This document shows positions 6,735 through 61,132 of a stretch of 64,000 bases of DNA, one piece after another. This DNA comes from Thermoplasmata archaeon (GTDB lineage Archaea > Thermoplasmatota > Thermoplasmata > Methanomassiliicoccales > Methanomethylophilaceae), in NCBI GenBank assembly GCA_015063245.1, contig SUSV01000006.1, positions 1-64,000 on the forward strand, read 5' to 3'. The number at the start of each line of letters is the position of its first letter. The stretch's first letter is position 1. Position numbers and translations under genes: made by a program. The notes below the pieces were generated by a model. The model saw nothing but the letters and a program-made list of their open reading frames with translations, ran no database searches and had not been told where the DNA came from.

Positions 6735-8753
6735 ATGTTCATCCCGACCACAAGAGAGGAAATCACCGCTTTGGGTTGGGAATCCCTGGATGTCATAATC
6801 GTTTCCGGGGATACATACACTGATAATTCCTACAACGGGTCGGCGGTGATAGGACACTGGCTCATCAGGCATGGTTTCAGGGTCGGCATCATCGCCCAGC
6901 CGAGGATCGACGTTCCCGATGATATCACGCGTCTTGGGGTGCCGGAGCTCTTCTGGTCGGTGTCGGCAGGGTGTGTCGACTCCATGGTCGCCAACTACAC
7001 TGCAGTGCAGAAGTTCCGCAAGGATGACGATTTCACCCCCGGAGGTCAGAACAACCGCCGTCTGGACAGGGCATGCATAGCATATACAAACCTCATCAAG
7101 AAGTATGCAAAGGGCAAGCCCATCATCCTCGGGGGCATAGAGGCGAGCTTGAGGAGGATAGCACATTACGATTATTGGTCGGACTCTGTGAGGAGGTCCA
7201 TCCTGTTCGACTCCAAGGCCGATGCTATCACATACGGCATGGCCGAATTGAGCAATCTGGCTATTGCGGAATCGATGAGGGACGGAAGGGATTGGAAGAA
7301 CGTTCCCGGAGTTTGCTACATATCCAACGAGCCTCCTCAGGACTACATCCCCATCCCAAGCTACGAGGACTGTTCTAAGGATAACGAAGCATTCATGGAA
7401 TCCTTCAGGATATTCAGGGACAACTGCGATCCCGTTACTGCAAAGGGATTGGTCCAGCTTCATGCAAACCGCTATCTCGTCCAGAACCCGCCGTCCAGAC
7501 TGCTTACCTCAGAGGAGCTGGATTCCGTCTACGAGATGGATTTCGAGAACAGGGTGCATCCCTTCTATCTCAAGGACGGGGATGTCAAGGCCATACAGAC
7601 CGTCAGGAACTCGATCACGACGCACCGCGGATGCTACGGGGACTGTTCCTTCTGCGCGATAGCGGTCCACCAGGGCCGTACCGTGGTGTCCCGTTCAGAG
7701 GAATCGATCGTCAGAGAAGTTGAGAGGTATGCGGCTGATCCCAGATTCAACGGCATCATCCAGGATGTTGGAGGGCCTACAGCGAACATGTACGGCATCG
7801 AATGCCTGAAGAAGCTGAGGAACGGCTGCTGCAAGGATAAATCATGCCTTGGCGACCGCCCTTGCCCCAGCCTGCATATCGACCATTCCAGGCAGATCGG
7901 TCTGCTCAACCGCATCCGCAACGTACCTGGGGTGAGGAAGGTGTTCGTCAACTCAGGGATAAGATACGACATGATACTCGCCGATAAGGCCAGAGGAGAT
8001 GATTATCTCAATCTCCTGGTGAAGCACCATGTCTCGGGACAGATGAAGATCGCCCCGGAGCATATCTCTCCGAGGGTCCTGAAGGCCATGGGCAAGCCCG
8101 GACAGCAGCAGCTGAAGGATTTCAAGAGGAAGTTCGACCAGTGCGCCCAGTCATGCGGGAAGGACCTCTTCCTTACGTACTACTTCATCGCAGCCCATCC
8201 GGGATGCAGGGAGGAGGACATGCGCCAGCTGTCCAGGTTCTGCCATGACCAGCTCCACATAAGCCCTGAGCAGGTCCAGATCTTCACCCCTACGCCTTCC
8301 ACCGTCTCCACTGCGATGTATCGCTCGGGGAAGGATATGGACGGGAAGCCAATATTCAGCGAGCACGACACCAAGAGGAAGATAGCCCAGAAGTACATCG
8401 TTGTGAGGCGTGATGATGGCAAGCATCGATGTCAGCGACCGCATCAGGCCCAACGATGTCTACCCTTACGACGAGTACACAGTGATCCTGAAGTCATTGG
8501 CCCACATCAACTACGCATACCGCATCAAAGGGCAGGGCATACAGATCGAGCTGTCGGACTATCTCGAGGAGGCTCCGGACAACGTTCTGAGGGATGTCTG
8601 CCATTCGATAGTACAATGGTCCCTCGGACGCAGATTCTCGGCACCGCAGTCCCTATCGGATTACATCCATTCGGAGAGCTTCATAGTCTCCAACAGGCCC
8701 AAATACCTCAGAAGGTCCCGCTCATTCCTCATGAGCCAGCAGGGCAGAAATAA
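6735..8753 (+). CDS. YgiQ-type (UPF0313) radical SAM protein; 3' end probably frameshifted
   Basis: It follows the kinase fusion by 9 bases. The radical SAM motif CYGDCSFC (C300, C304, C307) binds the 4Fe-4S cluster that cleaves S-adenosylmethionine; an N-terminal B12-binding-like region is also typical of the family. Clear family similarity runs to about residue 556 (KRKIAQKYIV). From about 8412 the frame stays open to 8753, but it reads out of frame through the next gene, giving an Arg/His/Gln-rich tail unlike any domain. A TGA at 8411-8413, one frame away, overlaps the ATG of the next gene (TGATG), the junction style used throughout this window. A one-base deletion just upstream would explain this. 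Functional length is probably about 558 residues. The reaction catalysed by the family is not established. Confidence 0.8.
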   Translation: MFIPTTREEITALGWESLDVIIVSGDTYTDNSYNGSAVIGHWLIRHGFRVGIIAQPRIDVPDDITRLGVPELFWSVSAGCVDSMVANYTAVQKFRKDDDFTPGGQNNRRLDRACIAYTNLIKKYAKGKPIILGGIEASLRRIAHYDYWSDSVRRSILFDSKADAITYGMAELSNLAIAESMRDGRDWKNVPGVCYISNEPPQDYIPIPSYEDCSKDNEAFMESFRIFRDNCDPVTAKGLVQLHANRYLVQNPPSRLLTSEELDSVYEMDFENRVHPFYLKDGDVKAIQTVRNSITTHRGCYGDCSFCAIAVHQGRTVVSRSEESIVREVERYAADPRFNGIIQDVGGPTANMYGIECLKKLRNGCCKDKSCLGDRPCPSLHIDHSRQIGLLNRIRNVPGVRKVFVNSGIRYDMILADKARGDDYLNLLVKHHVSGQMKIAPEHISPRVLKAMGKPGQQQLKDFKRKFDQCAQSCGKDLFLTYYFIAAHPGCREEDMRQLSRFCHDQLHISPEQVQIFTPTPSTVSTAMYRSGKDMDGKPIFSEHDTKRKIAQKYIVVRRDDGKHRCQRPHQAQRCLPLRRVHSDPEVIGPHQLRIPHQRAGHTDRAVGLSRGGSGQRSEGCLPFDSTMVPRTQILGTAVPIGLHPFGELHSLQQAQIPQKVPLIPHEPAGQK

Positions 8754-9111
8754 GAATCTCATCGATTCGGTCGAGCGGCTGATGTACAATGATCTCGTCT
8801 ACGATGACGATATCAGGAACTCCTACTTCACATGGGCCACCCATATGGCGAAGTACCGCTTCGGGCAATGCAACCAGACCTTCCGTGTGGTATCCGTGAA
8901 TCCCATCCTCGATTCGGACGATGTCCCCGACCATGTCCTGGACTATGTGGTCTACCATGAGATACTGCATCTGAGGCAGGACATGTCCAAGAAGCACCGT
9001 CCCCACAACGCCCAGTTCAAGTTATGGGAGCATATGTTCCCGGGATACGAAGAGGCGAATCAGTATCTCAGGAACATCTATTCGAGCCGGGGGCCGACCG
9101 ATCGGCTCTAA
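8413..9111 (+). CDS. YgjP/SprT-like zinc metallopeptidase-fold protein
   Basis: 232 residues. The zincin motif HEILHLRQ has H182, E183 and H186, with further histidines at about 195-198 (KKHRPHNAQFKLWE), the arrangement of the DUF45/YgjP M48-like fold. The N-terminal half is helical and unassigned. No signal peptide, so probably cytosolic. Starts at 8413 or 8416 are both ATG; 8413 gives a TGATG junction with the presumed true stop of the upstream radical SAM gene. Stop is TAA. Substrate unknown. Confidence 0.75.
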   Translation: MMASIDVSDRIRPNDVYPYDEYTVILKSLAHINYAYRIKGQGIQIELSDYLEEAPDNVLRDVCHSIVQWSLGRRFSAPQSLSDYIHSESFIVSNRPKYLRRSRSFLMSQQGRNKNLIDSVERLMYNDLVYDDDIRNSYFTWATHMAKYRFGQCNQTFRVVSVNPILDSDDVPDHVLDYVVYHEILHLRQDMSKKHRPHNAQFKLWEHMFPGYEEANQYLRNIYSSRGPTDRL

Positions 9112-9212: not shown

Positions 9213-9287
9213 GCGGATGTGGTCTAGCGGCTAGGATATTGCCTTCCCAAGGCAAATGTGCGGGTTCGATTCCCGCCATCCGCACCA
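9213..9287 (+). tRNA. tRNA-Gly (anticodon UCC)
   Basis: A class I cloverleaf. The acceptor stem is GCGGATG/CATCCGC with discriminator A, and CCA is encoded at 9285-9287. The anticodon loop CTTCCCA carries TCC between TTGC/GCAA-type arms, and the T arm is CGGG-TTCGATT-CCCG. No intron. It lies between the metallopeptidase gene and the amber-containing repeat gene, which starts 22 bases downstream. Confidence 0.95.
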
Positions 9288-9309
9288 TTCTCGTTCCGGA
9301 GGAAAAGGC

Positions 9310-10686
9310 ATGGAGGAATATGGGGTCGGCGAAAGGAACTCTGCTCCAGACGATGCTCCGGATATCAATGTTATAGAAACCCATGATTCCGTTCAGGATG
9401 CCGGGCTGAATTTCGAGCCCTTCGAGCACATCCCCAACCCTGCGGCCGAGGAGATAATCGCGAAGATGCATATCCTGCTCCTCATTGCGGAGGACAACCG
9501 CAACGAAGGGGAGATTCTTCATATCGCGGATTCTATGCTCGACATCGATCCCTTCTGCAGCGACGCACTGTTCTGGAAGGGCGGTTCGCTGTTCGACTCA
9601 TCAGATCTCATCGGCGGCCTCGAATCATGGGACAGGGCGATCCCAGACATGAGCCTCAGATATGTCGAGGATTATGCGGACATCATGCTGGAGACCATAG
9701 CAGATTGCTGCTAGCACGCCATTGTCGAACTGCATGACATGAGAAGGATTCCGGAACTGGTCATGGGCATCTGCGGCAAGCTCAGGGCAAGGGGCTACAG
9801 CAATCCGGAGCTTATGATCTCCGCGCTCCGCATGCCGTTGTATCTCGCAGAGGATGAACGTGATGCCGATGGCATCATCCGTATCTCCGAGTTCATGACA
9901 TCCATCGATCCCGAGTGCCCCGATGCGCTGTTCTGGATCGGGGGCAAGAGATCGGATTCCGATTTCCAAGGAGCTCTCGAGTGCTGGTCCAAGGCCGTCG
10001 GAGGCATGGATGTCAGATATATCAGGGACTATGCGGATGTCATCGTCGAGACGTTGGCGGAGGGATGCTTCGCCGATACATCAGACTATCATGCTGACCG
10101 TCAGATTCCATTGAGGATAGCCGGCATCTGCGAATCCATCAGCAGGAGGGTCCGCAGCGAAGACCTTCATTCCAATCTCGATCCGATGGGGTACATCATC
10201 GGCTGCCTGTTCGACCGCATAAGGCAGTCGGAGGATGCGGATGTTGCATCGAAGGCTTCGACCAAGGCCGTCATGCTCGCACTGTGCGATGCTTCGATAT
10301 CCCCGTCACTGGAATATCAGGACGACCTCTTCAGCCGTTCGGCGACGAGATTCGCCGTGCTACACGCAAGGGCGATGTTCGACAGGTTCGACTCGCCCGG
10401 ATACTTCAGGCGCAGATCCTGCTACAGGATCATCAGGGCGAACAACGATTTCATGCAAGCTCTCTCCAATTACGTCCACAAGGCAGCGAACAGATACTAC
10501 AGAGGGATCTTCGTCAGGCTGGAGAATCATTGGAAGGGTAATGATATGAGTGCCTTCACCGGCAGCCTGTTCGAAGCGTACGATGCACAGAGGTCGGGGA
10601 GACCGCAGTCCTCCAGCATCCAGAATAAGCGCAACCTGTGCATCAAGAGATACCTTATGGGCTACTTCGAGCCTGTCCGCGAATGA
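9310..10686 (+). CDS. duplicated-domain helical repeat protein with in-frame TAG (probable Pyl135)
   Basis: A single 458-residue frame interrupted only by TAG at 9712-9714 (codon 135) and ending in TGA. Two copies of a roughly 110-residue module follow each other. The first contains IDPFCSDALFWKGG and YVEDYADIMLETIADCC, then TAG, then HAIVELHDMRRIPELVMGIC. The second contains IDPECPDALFWIGG and YIRDYADVIVETLAEGC, then F, then ADTSDYHADRQIPLRIAGIC. The copies align without a gap across the TAG, which falls opposite Phe, so the TAG is an internal sense position. Pyrrolysine is the expected insertion in this lineage. The module resembles TPR/Sel1-like repeats; the function is not recognised. The ATG at 9310 has an upstream GGAGGAAAAGG ribosome site. 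The 3' end abuts the convergent gene at a shared TGATCA. Confidence 0.85.
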
Positions 10687-11356: not shown

Positions 11357-11956
11357 TCACATTTCCTGTGTCCCGTAGTACTTGCCGACCCCGCCGTAGC
11401 CGCTTATTATCCTGCCTTTGCGGGTGGCGAAGACGAAGTTGTCCAGGCGCTTCCTGAACTCGTCGGGGCGGCCCCTCGCGGCATCGATGTACGCGACGCG
11501 TATCCTTTTGTAAGGTTCGGGGAACGACACGTAATTGGCCCATACATCAGGTTCCCTTCTCAGTCCATCGATGATGTCCTCGGGGAAGACATACGGGGCA
11601 CGGATGATGTCCTCGACCATCGGTCTGACGTCGGGATGTATCAGTCCACATCCGTCCATCTAGATCAGGCGCTCGATGTTAGGTCTCGAATAGGTGCTGC
11701 TCCTCCTCGGGGTGAACCTTCTGAGCTGATGGGTGTCGTCCAGCCTCTTGGCCATCCCGTCGATCCATCCGAAGCACAAGGCCTCCTCGACCGCATCGTT
11801 GTACAGGATGCCCTTCTCGCCAGAATCCTTAGTCGGGAAGACGAACCATATCTCATCCCTATCGCGGAAATTGGCACAGAGCCAGCCACGCCATTCCGAA
11901 CGATCGTCGGAGTAGAATGTCTCCATGGTCCTGCCGTTTATGTTTACCTTAGTCAT
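11357..11956 (-). CDS. YdeI/OmpD-associated family protein with in-frame TAG (probable Pyl99)
   Basis: One frame of 199 residues with TAG at 11660-11662 (minus strand, codon 99) and a TGA stop. The N-terminal half (EIWFVFPTKDSG, LCFGWIDGMAKRLDD, RRFTPRRSSTYSRPN) and the C-terminal half (FPEPYKRIRVAYIDAARGR, a typical end of the family) each match one half of a normal roughly 190-residue YdeI protein. The TAG follows IERLI, where homologues continue straight into the segment before the second half. Two separate genes would each be half a domain. YdeI-family proteins have been linked to stress and antimicrobial-peptide tolerance in bacteria; a role here is unknown. Read-through as pyrrolysine is inference. 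Confidence 0.85.
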
Positions 11957-48981: not shown

Positions 48982-49719
48982 TCAGTATAGTTTCTTCCGT
49001 ATCACGACATGCGATATTGAATAGAAAATCGTGATATATATCAGGACTACCAACACTGATACAGGTTCTATGGCGCTGCAATTGGCAGCCTCACGTATGA
49101 TTGATGTTGTATGTGATAGGGGGAGGGCCCAAACAATATCGCCGACAATAGGAGGCAAGGAGTCTATCTCGAACAGCGTTCCGCACATGAACGACATCGG
49201 GAGGATGATGATGCTGTTGAACATCGATAGCGTAGGTGTGGAATCCGCAAGTAGTCCGGCGGCTACACCCAGCAGCGAGAACATTATGCTGGAAAGCAGC
49301 ATCGAAATAATCAGTAGCAAAGTGATATGCAGGCCGGTGGTGAGCATCATCCCCAGTCCAATAATTATGAGTCCACCAACCAACCCTCTGATTATACCCA
49401 TAACAGATTTACCGAAAATGACAGAACATGTATGCATCGGACAGAGGATCAGCTCATCGAAACTGGAATGAAAGAGTCTTTGGATTACGATCTTCTGGGA
49501 AGATGAAGAAAAACCTGAGTTCATAGAGGATATCGCCACGATACCCGGTATCACATAAGCTATGTAATCTGAATCTCCAGAGCGCATCCCGTATCCGAAT
49601 GCGAGCAGATACAACAATGGACCTACTAATGTAGAGACGAGCGTCTGGACCAGATTGTGCTTCATGTAGCATAGGTCTCCGTAGGCAACCCTGAATATTT
49701 CCGACGGAATGTTATGCAT
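48982..49719 (-). CDS. ABC-2 type exporter permease
   Basis: 245 residues with six membrane helices. ABC2 features are LVSTLVGPLLYLLAFGYGM, GIVAISSMNSGFSSSSQKIVIQRLFHSSFDE and LPMSFMCGTLFEIDSLPP. It works with the ATPase at 49719, whose stop overlaps its ATG by one base (TGATG). Substrate not predictable; drug- or lipid-exporter class. Confidence 0.87.
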   Translation of the reverse strand: MHNIPSEIFRVAYGDLCYMKHNLVQTLVSTLVGPLLYLLAFGYGMRSGDSDYIAYVIPGIVAISSMNSGFSSSSQKIVIQRLFHSSFDELILCPMHTCSVIFGKSVMGIIRGLVGGLIIIGLGMMLTTGLHITLLLIISMLLSSIMFSLLGVAAGLLADSTPTLSMFNSIIILPMSFMCGTLFEIDSLPPIVGDIVWALPLSHTTSIIREAANCSAIEPVSVLVVLIYITIFYSISHVVIRKKLY

Positions 49720-50591
49720 CAGAGCTTCCCTCCTGTGAGTTCCAAGAAGACATCCTCCAGGTTCGTAGGTCTGATGGAGATGCTGCCGCCGGCAGATGCG
49801 TTCAGGGATGCTTTCTTAGCTGATTGCATATCCTGGAAGTACTCTGTATGCTCGTTCCCATTCTCATCAACAATAACCAAAGTGAATTTCCCGACCATTT
49901 CCTTAAGTTCTGCAGGGGTGCCTTCTACAATCAATCTGCCTTTATTGATGATACCTACACGATCGCACAGCGATTCCGCTTCGTAGATGTAATGGGTGGT
50001 TAGGAATATGGTCGTACCCTGATTGTTGATGTTGCGTATCATCTTCCAAAGCATATTCCTGGACTGTGTGTCGAGACCCGTTGTGGGCTCATCCATGAAA
50101 AGAATGTTAGGATTGTGAATCAGCGAGCAAACAATGGAAACTCTCTTCTTCCATCCGCCGGAGAGTTTTGACACCTTGTCGCCCATACGGCCTGACAGTT
50201 CCATCAGGTCTGCCAGATATTCCATACGATCCTTGGACTTCCTAATAGATAGGTTCTGCATCATGCCGTGGTGGAATATGTTCTCCCTCACGGTAAGATC
50301 CTTGTCAAGGCTGTTTTGCTGTTGAATGACCCCTATGCATCTCCTCGCTTTCAAGAATTGTGTCCGTGTATCATGGCCGTCAATAACAATACTTCCGGAA
50401 GTGGGTTTTTCCATTGTTGTAAGCAAACGTATAGTCGTCGTCTTACCTGCACCGTTAGGGCCGAGGAAACCATAGATTTCTCCTTTATTCACAGTGATGT
50501 CCAGACCATCGACAGCAGTGAGCTTTCCGAAACGCTTAACAAGATTCTCGGCTTGAATTATGTGTTCGTTGTCCATCTGTTCATCTTCCAT
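49719..50591 (-). CDS. ABC exporter ATPase
   Basis: 290 residues (or 285 from ATG at 50576). Walker A is LGPNGAGKTT, the Q-loop is VIQQQNS, the signature is KLSGGWKKR, Walker B is NILFMDEPTTGLD and the H-loop is LTTHY. A C-terminal extension (IRPTNLEDVFLELTGGKL) is typical of DrrA/NatA-type exporters. It forms an operon with the ABC-2 permease. It is divergent from the iron/chelate importer; GTTAAC and GGTTAG half-sites lie between them. Confidence 0.9.
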   Translation of the reverse strand: MEDEQMDNEHIIQAENLVKRFGKLTAVDGLDITVNKGEIYGFLGPNGAGKTTTIRLLTTMEKPTSGSIVIDGHDTRTQFLKARRCIGVIQQQNSLDKDLTVRENIFHHGMMQNLSIRKSKDRMEYLADLMELSGRMGDKVSKLSGGWKKRVSIVCSLIHNPNILFMDEPTTGLDTQSRNMLWKMIRNINNQGTTIFLTTHYIYEAESLCDRVGIINKGRLIVEGTPAELKEMVGKFTLVIVDENGNEHTEYFQDMQSAKKASLNASAGGSISIRPTNLEDVFLELTGGKL

Positions 50592-50712
50592 TATAAGAGT
50601 CTAACCAAAGTTAACTGGACGTCAGTCTCTGGATGCAGACAATAGGTGCATGGCCATCGTCATTCAGCCTTCCAGCAGTAATGATTCAGCAATTATGCTC
50701 ACATCTTAATTT

Positions 50713-50722
50713 CTTATATTTA
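50713..50722 (+). promoter_or_regulatory. TATA box of the metal-chelate importer operon
   Basis: CTTATATTTA lies about 26 bases upstream of the centre of the palindromic operator, so that operator should cover the transcription start. Confidence 0.5.
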
Positions 50723-50729
50723 ATTATAG

Positions 50730-50754
50730 CTAAACATGTTTAGGAAAACCTAAA
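50730..50754. promoter_or_regulatory. overlapping palindromic operator, DtxR/IdeR-like
   Basis: CTAAACATGTTTAG (50730-50743) is a perfect 14-base palindrome. It overlaps TTTAGG-AAAA-CCTAAA (50739-50754), a 6-base dyad. The TTAGG/CCTAA half-sites resemble those bound by DtxR/IdeR/MntR-type metal repressors. Placement over the presumed start of the importer operon suggests repression when metal is sufficient. The regulator is not in the window. Confidence 0.6.
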
Positions 50755-50805
50755 ATACTGTCAATACTAACCGTGATTCGCGTAGAACGCGCCTAGTGTG
50801 ATAAT

Positions 50806-51906
50806 ATGAATTCAAAGATGATCGCCATCATAGCGGCGGTTGCTGTAGTCGCAATCGCTGTTGCAGCATTCATTGTGCTGTCTGACGACAGCGATGAAAA
50901 CGATCTCCCGACAGATGGGATTGTAATCACTGATAGCCTTGGCAAAGAGGTTACCATCGGTAAAGCTGCTGAGGATGTTGTCATTATAAGTGGAAACCAA
51001 GCTGAGTTCTTCCAGATTCTTGGCCTCGAAGATAAAATAGTCGGTGCTTCTCAAACCGTATTCAATTCTCAGGACGTTTACAAGGAAGGATTCTTTGATA
51101 ATATACAGAATGTAGGTAAGTACAACGGTACCGCTATTGTAGAGAATATCGTGAAGACGGAGACCAAGTTCGTCATATCTCCTACATCTATGGGACTCAA
51201 AGAAGCCACCATTAACGAACTGAAGAACACCTATGGTATCACTACAATAATTCTCGAGTGCTTTGGTGAGACGATGATCCATGACGCCGAGCAGATTGTG
51301 AAGATGTTCGCATCCGAGTCAGCGAAGGATGCGTTGGATGAGTATAAGTCTCTTTACAACGAAGTCAAAGACAAAGCCCTCAAGGCCGCATCGAAGGATA
51401 AGAAAGATGTGAGTTTCCTCATCCAGACGCCCACAATGAAAGGATTCTACACAGATAATTCGGAGCAGGCAAAGAATGCGAAGCTCATAGCCGGTCACAA
51501 CAGCCTCTCAGAATGGTATGACTCCGGACTCGACATCTCGGGAACCTTCGCGACTCCCAGTCCTGAATCTATTGCCGCACAGAGCCAGAAGGTAGGTATC
51601 GATTACTATATCGTACGCGGTTCTTCAAGCAAGACCTTGGATGCAGCAGCTGTCAGTGCAATTGAGACTCTCGGAGATTACGCATCTTCTGTTAAACCGA
51701 TTCAGGACGGAAATATGTACGTGATACACTCGGATGTTGCATCCGGTTGTCGCGATTATATCGGATTCATCATCTACGCCCAGATATTCGGCATAAATGT
51801 AGATGCGGATCCTGTGAAACTCGCCAATGAGTTCAACGAGAAGTACGGATTCAGGGGAGATGAATACACCTCTCTACTGCTAAACTACCAACCAGCCACG
51901 GCCTAA
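50806..51906 (+). CDS. ABC importer substrate-binding protein (FecB/BtuF type)
   Basis: 366 residues. One N-terminal hydrophobic helix (IAIIAAVAVVAIAVAAFIVL) without a lipobox Cys acts as membrane anchor. A periplasmic-binding fold follows (GIVITDSLGKEVTIGKAAEDVVIIS; ETKFVISPTSMGLKEATINEL). Such proteins bind iron-siderophore, haem or corrinoid outside the cell. Operon order is binding protein, permease, ATPase, then a CbiX-like chelatase, which favours a tetrapyrrole or metal substrate. A hairpin follows its stop. Stop is TAA. Confidence 0.85.
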   Translation: MNSKMIAIIAAVAVVAIAVAAFIVLSDDSDENDLPTDGIVITDSLGKEVTIGKAAEDVVIISGNQAEFFQILGLEDKIVGASQTVFNSQDVYKEGFFDNIQNVGKYNGTAIVENIVKTETKFVISPTSMGLKEATINELKNTYGITTIILECFGETMIHDAEQIVKMFASESAKDALDEYKSLYNEVKDKALKAASKDKKDVSFLIQTPTMKGFYTDNSEQAKNAKLIAGHNSLSEWYDSGLDISGTFATPSPESIAAQSQKVGIDYYIVRGSSSKTLDAAAVSAIETLGDYASSVKPIQDGNMYVIHSDVASGCRDYIGFIIYAQIFGINVDADPVKLANEFNEKYGFRGDEYTSLLLNYQPATA

Positions 51907-51915
51907 ACCTATCCA

Positions 51916-51935
51916 GGGGCGTTCTGCCCCTTTTT
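51916..51935 (+). terminator. hairpin with T-run between binding protein and permease
   Basis: GGGGC-GTTCT-GCCCC followed by TTTTT directly after the binding-protein gene and before the permease. It may end part of the transcripts, so that the binding protein outnumbers the membrane parts. Confidence 0.6.
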
Positions 51936-51949
51936 CCATGGTGCAGTAC

Positions 51950-53095
51950 ATGACAGATGCTTCGACGATAGATAGGATAGAAGGGTTGGACAGAGAGAGC
52001 AATCTGCACAGGGTGTATAACGCATCGGTCAGAAAGAAAATGACCTTCATCACCATCATGGTGATTGCTCTGGTGATTGCGTTCATATTGTCCGTGGCGT
52101 TGGGCACTGTGGACATCCCGTTCACTGATACAGTCAAGGCCATCCTATACAACATCTATCCCGATCCCAGTCTGATGCCCAGCGAGAGCTACTATGTGAA
52201 GTTCATTTATGCCAGGTCAGGAAGGTCATTCCTGTGCATCCTGACTGGAGTGAGCCTTGCCATAGCTGGGACGATAATGCAGGGTGTTCTTAGGAACCCC
52301 CTCGTAAGTCCCTTCACTTTAGGTGTCTCATCAGCTGCATCCTTCGGTGCTGCAATGGGTATTGTGTTCTGGCCATTTCTATTTGGTTCTACGGTGACCT
52401 CATACACGGTACTGGGGTCTGTGATGACGGATCAGGATATATTCATGGTCATCATGGCATTCATATTCAGTCTTCTCAGCGTCTTTTTCGTCCTGCTGAT
52501 GGCAAGGAGGACTGCCATGTCACGTTCAACCGTGATTTTATCAGGAGTCATCATCAGCTACTTCTTCCAAGCGGGAGTTAGCTTCGCCAAATACGTATCT
52601 GATGATGAGTCTCTCAGAGATATTACCAATTGGCTTCTGGGAGGTATGTGGAAGGCCAGTATGGGCGTGGATTTCATTGTATTCCCAATCGTTGCAATCT
52701 GTTCTATTTATCTCATGTATCTTTCCCCGAAGATCAACGTCCTCGCCGCAGGGGACGATGTTGCACAAAGCCTGGGCATCGATGTCAATAAGCTTAGGGA
52801 CAAGGTGCTGATTGTATCGACTCTTATGTCCTCAGTATGCTTGGCTTTCACTGGAATCATAGGATTCATCGGTCTGATGGCACCCCATATCTGCAGAATG
52901 ATCATAGGCAACGATACCAGATTCCTGGTGCCTGCATCAGCACTTATGGGATCGCTGATTTTGCTTGTTTCAGACACGGTCGGAAGGATAATAATGCGTC
53001 CGGAGGAACTCCCTGTCGGCATCATAATGTACGTGCTAGGCGGCATCTTCTTCGTTTGGATGATGCTTCGCAAGAAGAAGGAGGTGGTCATGTGA
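51950..53095 (+). CDS. FecCD-family ABC importer permease
   Basis: 381 residues (385 from ATG 51938). About nine to ten membrane helices. Signatures are GRSFLCILTGVSLAIAGTIMQGVLRNPLVSPFTLGVSS and GIIGFIGLMAPHICRMIIG, diagnostic of BtuC/FecCD. The ATG at 51950 is preferred because GGTG lies six bases upstream. It forms the channel for the FecB-type binding protein, with the ATPase overlapping its stop. Confidence 0.9.
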   Translation: MTDASTIDRIEGLDRESNLHRVYNASVRKKMTFITIMVIALVIAFILSVALGTVDIPFTDTVKAILYNIYPDPSLMPSESYYVKFIYARSGRSFLCILTGVSLAIAGTIMQGVLRNPLVSPFTLGVSSAASFGAAMGIVFWPFLFGSTVTSYTVLGSVMTDQDIFMVIMAFIFSLLSVFFVLLMARRTAMSRSTVILSGVIISYFFQAGVSFAKYVSDDESLRDITNWLLGGMWKASMGVDFIVFPIVAICSIYLMYLSPKINVLAAGDDVAQSLGIDVNKLRDKVLIVSTLMSSVCLAFTGIIGFIGLMAPHICRMIIGNDTRFLVPASALMGSLILLVSDTVGRIIMRPEELPVGIIMYVLGGIFFVWMMLRKKKEVVM

Positions 53096-53880
53096 CCATG
53101 AGCATCACCAATCTTGTCCAGGGTTACGGAAACAAGATGGTTCTGAAAGACGTCTCCTTCGATGTCGAACAAGGAGAGATGGTGGCGATTCTGGGACCTA
53201 ACGGTTCAGGGAAATCCACCCTTATCAAGTCGATATGCAGGATAAAGCAGCCTCTCGGCGGTTCAATCACAATAGATGGAGATAACATCATGGGGATAGG
53301 CCGCAAGGTATTCTCAAAGTACATCGGATATGTGCCGCAGAAATTCACACCTTCGGACTATATGCAGGTCTTCGATGCCGTTCTGATAGGGCGTGCCCCG
53401 TATATGGAATGGACCTATTCCAGAGAGGATTTCGAGATGGCCGCTAAAGCGGTCGAAATAATGGGTATAGACGATCTTCTCGAGAAGAACATCCATGATC
53501 TGTCTGGGGGTCAGATCCAGAAGGTGATCATTGCCAGAGCCATAACTCAGGATCCCCGCTATTACATCCTCGATGAACCAACAAGTGCTTTGGACCTGAG
53601 GAATCAGCTGAACACACTTCGTTCAATGCGCGACATCATCGAGAGAAAGGATGCCGGGGTCCTCGTCGCACTGCATGATATCAATTTGGCTATGCACTTC
53701 ACCGACAAGGTTGTGATGCTAAAGGACGGCCTTGTTTATGCTTGCGGTAAGCCAGAGGATGTCATAACAGAGCAGAGTATCAAGGACATCTACGGAGTGT
53801 CATCGGAAATAGTAGATGGCAAGGATGGGAAATATGTCCACATCTGTGAGGATCTATCATATCGTTCACCACTACTCTGA
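53092..53880 (+). CDS. FecE/BtuD-type ABC importer ATPase
   Basis: 262 residues. Walker A is LGPNGSGKST, the signature is LSGGQIQKV, Walker B is YYILDEPTSALD and the H-loop His is in ALHDINLA. The start is GTG at 53092, inside the permease stop (GTGA) and five bases after GGAGGTG; ATG at 53098 is an alternative. It powers import of a metal chelate or corrinoid. Confidence 0.92.
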   Translation: MTMSITNLVQGYGNKMVLKDVSFDVEQGEMVAILGPNGSGKSTLIKSICRIKQPLGGSITIDGDNIMGIGRKVFSKYIGYVPQKFTPSDYMQVFDAVLIGRAPYMEWTYSREDFEMAAKAVEIMGIDDLLEKNIHDLSGGQIQKVIIARAITQDPRYYILDEPTSALDLRNQLNTLRSMRDIIERKDAGVLVALHDINLAMHFTDKVVMLKDGLVYACGKPEDVITEQSIKDIYGVSSEIVDGKDGKYVHICEDLSYRSPLL

Positions 53881-53915
53881 AATTCAATCTTTTAACCAAT
53901 TGAGGAGAGATCGTC

Positions 53916-54695
53916 ATGAAGACTGCTATACTGCTTGCTGCCCATGGGGCTAAAGAATCTGTAAATGCTGATGCCGCAACGAGTAATCTGCAGAAGGTTT
54001 ACGAGATGACCGGATTGGATACATACAAGGGCTATGTACATATCGAACCATTCGTGCAGGAATCTATTTCTAGGATGTCTGCTGAAGGTGTCGACAGGGC
54101 TGTAATCGTGCCTCTGTTCACATTCAGTGGATTTATACCGGATATCGTCCTTAGGAAATCGGTAGGTGCGGAGCCCGGATCCCGTACAGCCACGATAGAA
54201 GCTCAGGGAAGGGACATGGAGGTTATTTTCACCGAAACGCTATGCGACCATCCACTGATGAAAGACATCTTGCTCAAGAAGTGTGAGAAGGAGCAAGCCA
54301 CAGCAGAGCATACATCGATAATGCTCATATGGCACGGTTCCAGGAAAGCAGGCCCCGATGATAATGCTGAGATGTGTGCCGACTACCTCAGAAATGCTGG
54401 ATACGATGTGATCTGTTCATACAACGAATTTCAGCATCCGACAGTAGAGGAGGGTCTATCTAAAGCATCCTCTTCGAAATCTGATGTTCTTGCAATCCCC
54501 ATGTTCATATCGCCCGGTTCTCATACCATTTCAGACATACCGCCTAAGCTCATGCTTAAAGACAATTGCAGGCGCAGTGTCGTCAATATTCACGGAAAGG
54601 ATGTCACCGTGAGATATGCTGATGAGATTGGAATGGAATCCGGAATCACAGATATCATCATGGATCGCATAAGAAATGTCATGGATGTGTCTTGA
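53916..54695 (+). CDS. two-domain CbiX/CbiK-like sirohydrochlorin chelatase
   Basis: 259 residues with two CbiX-type halves. H10 lies in LLAAHGAKES and H140 in LIWHGSRKAGPDD, each the metal-binding His of a chelatase domain. Family enzymes insert cobalt, nickel or iron into sirohydrochlorin for cobalamin, F430 or haem d1 routes. It follows the chelate importer by 35 bases, so co-regulation by the operator at 50730-50754 is plausible. The archaeal F430 enzyme CfbA is half this size; this is the long type. Metal not predictable. Confidence 0.8.
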   Translation: MKTAILLAAHGAKESVNADAATSNLQKVYEMTGLDTYKGYVHIEPFVQESISRMSAEGVDRAVIVPLFTFSGFIPDIVLRKSVGAEPGSRTATIEAQGRDMEVIFTETLCDHPLMKDILLKKCEKEQATAEHTSIMLIWHGSRKAGPDDNAEMCADYLRNAGYDVICSYNEFQHPTVEEGLSKASSSKSDVLAIPMFISPGSHTISDIPPKLMLKDNCRRSVVNIHGKDVTVRYADEIGMESGITDIIMDRIRNVMDVS

Positions 54696-59683: not shown

Positions 59684-61132
59684 TCAGAAATCGAAAAGGC
59701 TAGCCTGATTCTTCTTTTTCTCCGGGGCGGGCTTCTTCACCGGCTCGGCAGGAACCTCCTCTGGAGGCTCCACTATCACAGCGGGCTGCTCCGCGGCGGC
59801 AGGCTTTGGCTTCTTGACTGCAGGCACGGAGGCCTCTTCCTCGATAATCTTGAAGACGGCTTTTACCTCCTTAGAATCGGGTTTCTTGTCGAGAAGGAAT
59901 CCGAGCTCCTCCGGTTCGAGTGCCAGCTACTTTGTCATGACAAGACGCATCTCCTCCTCGTTGGCGGCGAGCTGCTTGATATAAGGGAGTACATCGAGGT
60001 CTACGCGGCGGGTCGATGTATGGAGGTAGACGGCCAGCTTGAGGCAGACCGATTTCCTGAGAGTACGAGCGGTCTTGCTGCGGGACATCTTGGAAAGGTA
60101 TGAGGGGAAGTGAAGACGATCATGGGAATACCTGTTGGACATGCGGGCGGTGTTGACGCCTGCGGACATCATGTCTCCTGCATAGGACCAGAATCCGTAA
60201 TACTGGCGCCTCATGACGCGGCCTAGGTAGATGTCGGCGCGGGAGAGCTTCTCGTATCCGCGAACGAGATCGCCTCTGTCAAGGTACTCGTATGGGAGAT
60301 TCTCATCCACCCAGAGCTCCATCTCGCCAGGATCGGTATCGGTGTCGAGCATCACGCGCCTGGCCTTCATGGCATCGGGCGACCTGAAGATCGCCGACAT
60401 GAGCGCATACATATCGTTGCGCTTGTCGCGTGCGGATATACCCTCTGCCATCTCGGCCGTAACATGATCGTTGCCGAGGCAGAGGGCCTCCAGATTGCGG
60501 ACGGCTGCGCGCATATCGCCGTTTGCCTTCTCTGCGATGATGGCCATCGCTTCCGGATCCACGGTGACGCCCTCGTTAGCCGCTATCTTATTGAGTGCCT
60601 TGACAACTGAAGGCACCTTGGGCCTTTGGAATGTTATCTGAAGGGTGTTCGTCTTGGCTGCGCTGCATTTCCTGGACAGCTCGTAGTAATCGTTCACTAT
60701 GAGTATCACTGGCTGGAGGGTCTCCTTGATGAGCTTCGTTATGACAGGGATTGCCCCGCGGTCCACATTGCCGAAGAAATTGTCGGCCTCGTCCAGTACG
60801 ATGAGCTTCCTCTGGCCCTTGCCTGTGTCAAGGTAGGATCCGTCGTCCGAGAACGTGTTGAACTTGGACCCCCTTATGGCGATATCCTCGATGGCCTGTC
60901 CGGTACGCTGATCGGATGCGTTCATCTCGACGATGGACCAGCCCATGTCCCTCGCTAGGGCCTCCGCTGATGTAGTCTTCCCTATACCGGGCGTGCCTAT
61001 CAGCACGACGGCCCTCATCGCCGGGATACCGGAGTTCCATGACTCCGCCCACTGCCTTAGGGTGTTGACTGCCCCGGGATTGCCGATGACGTCGTCCAGG
61101 GTCTTCGGGCGGTATTTCTCTGTCCAGTCCAT
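59684..61132 (-). CDS. rfcL: replication factor C large subunit with in-frame TAG (probable Pyl402) and PIP box
   Basis: 482 residues. AAA+ clamp-loader motifs are MDWTEKYRPKTLDDVIGNPG, Walker A IGTPGIGKT (45-53), VLDEADNFFG, and the RfcL C-terminal helical domain. TAG at 59927-59929 (codon 402) lies inside this domain. The frame continues LALEPEELGFLLDKKPDS, then an Ala/Pro/Lys linker and the terminal PCNA-binding motif NQASLFDF before TGA. RfcL proteins normally end in such a PIP box. Termination at TAG would remove about 80 residues and leave a 240-base gap before taw1, in a cluster whose genes otherwise abut. Read-through as pyrrolysine is inferred. Loads the PCNA clamp with RfcS. Confidence 0.93.

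Follow-up and report, generated by a model that had tools for sequence, protein, structure and literature searches.

The reading frame at positions 9310–10686 of the window, by which we mean the whole 64,000-nt stretch of DNA analysed here, very probably represents a single gene in which the in-frame UAG codon (codon 135) is decoded by tRNA-Pyl, yielding as its main product a 458-residue, all-helical repeat protein that carries pyrrolysine near the end of a helix. The frame comprises 458 codons without a second internal stop or a frameshift, and the G+C content by codon position is coding-like on both sides of the TAG codon (GC3 of 0.67 on its 5' side and 0.72 on its 3' side). The features of this gene, together with two other TAG-containing genes in the window that served as internal controls, are listed below.

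9213..9287, forward strand: tRNA-Gly (CCC), directly 5' of the gene and not part of it
9298..9302, forward strand: Shine–Dalgarno-like GGAGG, 7 nt 5' of ATG 9310, duplex energy -9.5 kcal/mol
9310..10686, forward strand: whole gene, encoding a 458-residue helical-repeat protein when TAG is read as pyrrolysine; terminal TGA
9436..9795, forward strand: module 1 (residues 43–162), the extra N-terminal copy, which bears the TAG codon
9712..9714, forward strand: in-frame TAG (codon 135), the sole internal stop of the frame
9796..10152, forward strand: module 2 (residues 163–281), with Phe254 (TTC) at the place equivalent to TAG; supported by the duplication alignment and by hhalign to the ~280-residue family
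9814..9816, forward strand: internal ATG (Met169), strongest candidate for the start of a separate second product, near the point where ~280-residue relatives begin
10153..10683, forward strand: C-terminal helical part (residues 282–458), common to a ~280-residue family of Methanomethylophilaceae
11357..11956, reverse strand: YdeI/OmdA-type protein, with TAG at codon 99 (11660–11662)
59684..61132, reverse strand: RfcL, replication factor C large subunit, with TAG at codon 402 (59927–59929)

Module duplication across the TAG codon

The comparison of the protein with itself, which had been proposed in the initial annotation, yielded two diagonals that pair residues 47–97 with 167–217 (offset 120) and residues 92–161 with 211–280 (offset 119). 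The second diagonal is ungapped and runs across the TAG codon, which lies opposite Phe254 (TTC), and the MGIC sequence at residues 152–155 is paired with AGIC at residues 271–274, so that both the gap-free alignment over TAG and the pairing of these motifs described earlier were borne out. Small gaps between the modules occur near residues 44 and 97, and none at TAG. The gapped alignment of residues 1–157 with residues 158–300 scored 236, whereas 1000 shuffles averaged 29.7 (s.d. 4.9) and did not exceed 50. The tandem duplication is therefore well founded, and the size of the module is ~119 residues instead of the ~110 residues given previously. Residues 136–161 alone scored +33 against module 2, a value that was reached by 0 of 100,000 random draws (mean -27, s.d. 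11). The first eight residues past TAG are hardly conserved between the modules, with one of the eight identical. Between the modules, pN is 0.375 and pS is 0.68; these rates suggest constraint, though they are near saturation.

The initial annotation regarded the duplication as proof that TAG occupies a sense position. The duplication does show that the ancestor of codon 135 was a sense codon within one open frame. However, the word proof is too strong for the present-day reading of the codon, because a fresh nonsense mutation would leave an identical alignment; it is the genome-wide evidence that carries the step to current readthrough.

TAG as a probable sense codon in the host genome

The host genome (Methanomethylophilaceae, order Methanomassiliicoccales; 1.49 Mb in 12 contigs) contains a complete pyrrolysine cassette, in which pylT, pylS, pylB, pylC and pylD are arranged in one row. 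The scores obtained with the NCBIfam models TIGR02367, TIGR03910, TIGR03909 and TIGR03911 were 264 bits for PylS_Cterm (cut-off 178), 440 for PylB (348), 325 for PylC (248) and 192 for PylD (150), respectively, and a tRNA-Pyl with the anticodon CUA (cta) was identified by ARAGORN just 5' of pylS. As in known users of pyrrolysine, the mttB gene of this genome (L007) contains one in-frame TAG, in the context ...AGM-TAG-TDAKIPDSQAAHEK... A PYLIS-like hairpin was not found 3' of TAG 135, where a 92-nt fold was weaker than those of shuffled sequences (z-score +1.0); elements of the PYLIS type are not obligatory (PMC4153887).

The use of TAG as a stop codon was sampled in the window and in four other 20-kb stretches, which together make up approximately a tenth of the genome, using a simple and crude codon-bias gene caller. 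Of the 53 frames called in the window, TGA terminates 46, TAA terminates 4 and TAG terminates 3. All three of the TAG-ended frames, namely the gene at 9310–10686, RfcL and the YdeI/OmdA-type gene, continue beyond the TAG in the same frame with sequence of coding character, and the remaining long TAG-ended frames of the window resemble opposite-strand shadows of called genes. Window genes that were missed by the caller end in TGA or TAA. The 72 genes of the other four stretches (80 kb) end in TGA (63 genes) or TAA (9 genes), and none in TAG. Thus, among ~120 genes in the window and the 80 kb sampled elsewhere, TAG did not terminate any gene that was called reliably. As TAG accounts for ~20% of stop trinucleotides, the chance of finding 0 in 119 genes is ~1e-11, and it is still ~6e-7 when the TAG use of M. 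luminyensis (11.3%; PMC4153887) is taken as the rate. TAG stops make up 1.6% in "Ca. M. alvus" (PMC4153887).

The two other TAG-containing genes of the window carry the codon at positions that are occupied by amino acids in sibling proteins. At codon 402 of RfcL, six of nine siblings, among them the nearest, have Glu and the others Ala, Arg or Gly. The conserved C-terminal tail of RfcL, QASLFDF, the PCNA-binding motif of archaeal RfcL, is located 3' of this TAG. The tail is made only upon TAG readthrough, and this clamp-loader subunit would then depend on pyrrolysine. In the YdeI/OmdA-type protein, the siblings mostly have Trp at codon 99 (NIERLIWLDS) and otherwise Asn or Arg. The TAG codon precedes the OmdA domain. 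Furthermore, the YdeI genes of at least four sibling genomes (L029, L032, L036 and L044) possess in-frame TAG codons of their own at differing positions: G077 and G085 share one position, at which other siblings have Glu, and further TAG codons are present in G097 and G088. These differences in YdeI and RfcL from one sibling to another suggest that, where a position is tolerant, TAG comes and goes as any ordinary codon would. Taken together, the Pyl cassette, the lack of TAG-terminated genes in the sample and the TAG codons at sense positions in two window genes support, at the level of sequence, current readthrough of TAG in this genome.

Protein family and alternative readings of the locus

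A search of 147 genomes from the order gave no whole-length relative of the 458-residue protein, and none was detected in public genome contigs, viral contigs, phage records or PDB sequences, so that the residue at codon 135 could not be read from an ortholog. A weak match in genome G127 (E 2.9e-4) was dropped because it sits among other genes and in a different frame. No Pfam family was matched at E values up to 1, including TPR, a second comparison at a threshold of 0.1 likewise gave none, and there was no NCBIfam match. A profile of the two modules led to a ~280-residue helical family in Methanomethylophilaceae that is encoded downstream of a UbiD-type gene. When aligned with hhalign, residues 184–455 covered nearly the whole profile of this family, including its C-terminal end (score 47.7 over 240 columns); the best of 40 shuffles scored 23.7, and 15 other window proteins scored no higher than 19.7. 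Judged from these profile comparisons, residues 163–458 are homologous to the whole ~280-residue family, which makes module 1 a copy added at the N-terminus. The members of this family (e.g. L177:1447-2286 and L176:1447-2289, both downstream of a UbiD-type decarboxylase gene) differ from the 458-residue protein in having a single module and no TAG, in sharing only ~20% identity with it and in their gene neighbourhood. The gene thus has the appearance of a family member whose first module was copied once more at the N-terminus, with the TAG codon falling in that copy; the last 27 residues of module 1 come after TAG. The same genome also encodes a 747-residue paralog (L204:109-2352; G000:C5), which contains two helical units as well as cysteine-rich stretches resembling zinc ribbons and belongs to an undescribed family of Methanomethylophilaceae.

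The gene at 9310–10686 is not adjacent to a UbiD-type gene; its neighbours are the tRNA-Gly gene, a YgjP-like gene and an unnamed gene. Synteny traced from both the YdeI side and the YgjP side indicated that this neighbourhood is not conserved, and no positional ortholog can therefore be read. Several other observations were made in this region and elsewhere in the window. The frame of a radical SAM (YgiQ-type) gene at 6735–8753 extends ~110 codons, in another frame, into the ygjP-like gene at 8410–9111; a similar run-on is present in the sibling G085 (L171) and absent from G081 and G087. A sibling YgjP-like gene (L144, G081:C11:5026-5694) contains one in-frame TAG. The segment at 48982–54695 has a lower G+C content (0.44–0.48) and carries ABC exporter genes and a set of genes for an ABC importer, likely of the iron-siderophore type.

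AlphaFold, run on the single sequence, predicts an all-helical structure for the 458-residue protein, with low confidence (pLDDT 48.6). In this low-confidence model, the helix holding codon 135 is predicted to span residues 116–139, with TAG near its end. Foldseek searches with the same model (pLDDT 48.6) gave weak matches to TPR structures, and the module profile also matches TPR-like stretches in other proteins. The protein resembles TPR repeats in its helix-pair pattern and differs from them in the lack of a Pfam TPR match. With a model of this quality, the Foldseek hits do no more than suggest a TPR-like fold. The most likely role of the protein, and presumably of its relatives too, would be that of a TPR-like binding scaffold.

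The strongest rival explanation is that the locus gives two products, since a complete protein could be encoded from approximately residue 166 onwards. According to this explanation, UAG 135 would end a truncated, 134-residue duplicate, and a second frame would start internally, at best from Met169 (9814) or else from Met144 (9739), to give an ordinary single-module protein. The homology of residues 163–458 to complete ~280-residue proteins, with a start at approximately residue 166, is consistent with this, as is the fact that the sequence after Met169 could alone be a complete family protein. In addition, the ATG at 9814 is preceded by CGGAG, with a duplex energy of -5.8 kcal/mol (-9.5 for ATG 9310), but the GGAG lies only ~3 nt before the ATG, which is an unusually short spacing. 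The initial annotation had pointed to an independent start just past 9714 with its own ribosome site. The ATG at 9739 has no Shine–Dalgarno-like sequence (-0.6 kcal/mol), and this test is weak in this genome. We gave little weight to the comparison of these motifs, because they do not separate the starts called in the window from random positions (median -3.1 versus -3.6 kcal/mol). Against two products, residues 136–161 have kept a similarity to module 2 that greatly exceeds chance, which is unexpected for an untranslated or unneeded stretch, and TAG does not act as a stop in the ~120 other genes sampled. We consider separate products improbable. A related proposal is that UAG 135 acts as a switch, with the two-module protein being made when pyrrolysine is plentiful, and termination followed by initiation at Met169 giving a one-module form when it is scarce. 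We regard such a switch as very unlikely; if it did exist, the methylamine or pyrrolysine status of the cell would set the size of the scaffold.

A recent nonsense mutation in a decaying gene, with TAG still terminating translation or being leakily read, has an equally slim chance of being correct. The gene is lineage-specific and has no sibling ortholog, as is often the case with expendable genes. However, its 458 codons contain no further stop or frameshift, the coding signal is equally good before and after TAG, and in a genome whose sampled genes have no TAG stops a mutation to TAG would be decoded instead of causing termination. Least probable of all is that TAG arose by an assembly or sequencing error, although the genome is metagenome-assembled, as are most of its siblings from the public collection. 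Random errors would also have produced TAA, TGA and frameshifts within genes, whereas two more TAG codons are present in conserved genes of the window and the YdeI genes of siblings have theirs elsewhere in the gene.

For a single gene with a pyrrolysine codon, we infer the following course of events. The module would have been duplicated first, and TAG would then have arisen by drift at a tolerant position in the added copy, where UAG 135 is presumably read efficiently. An origin by drift at such a position would imply that pyrrolysine has no catalytic role in the 458-residue protein.

Relation to other pyrrolysine-using archaea

Pyrrolysine proteins beyond the methylamine methyltransferases have been predicted in "Ca. 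Methanomethylophilus alvus" by Borrel et al. (2014), whose Table 7 contains 16 cases, one of them a protein with Sel1 repeats (PMC4153887). The present genome resembles that of "Ca. M. alvus", a member of the same order, in having a complete pyl cassette, rare TAG stops and TAG inside unrelated genes. The case described here differs in that a different protein is concerned, an internal duplication additionally reveals the sense position and TAG stops number 0 in ~120 genes. Kivenson et al. are reported to have described, in 2025, an archaeal code in which every TAG codon is read as pyrrolysine; such a code would cover exactly this kind of genome-wide reading. The close relatives of the window RfcL are found in genomes of Candidatus Methanomethylophilaceae and Methanomassiliicoccales, many of them from rumen and gut samples. 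The host appears to be a methanogen of the gut or rumen, from a group known to read the stop codon TAG as pyrrolysine, the 22nd amino acid, and the gene appears to be a new example of a phenomenon already described, involving no new mechanism.

The gene at 9310–10686 adds one more homology-supported pyrrolysine protein that has no link to methylamine metabolism and, together with RfcL and the YdeI/OmdA-type protein, supports the view that TAG is a plain sense codon in this lineage. For annotation, this means that TAG should be translated as pyrrolysine in these archaea; otherwise, approximately 3 of 50 genes in a window of this kind would be split in two.
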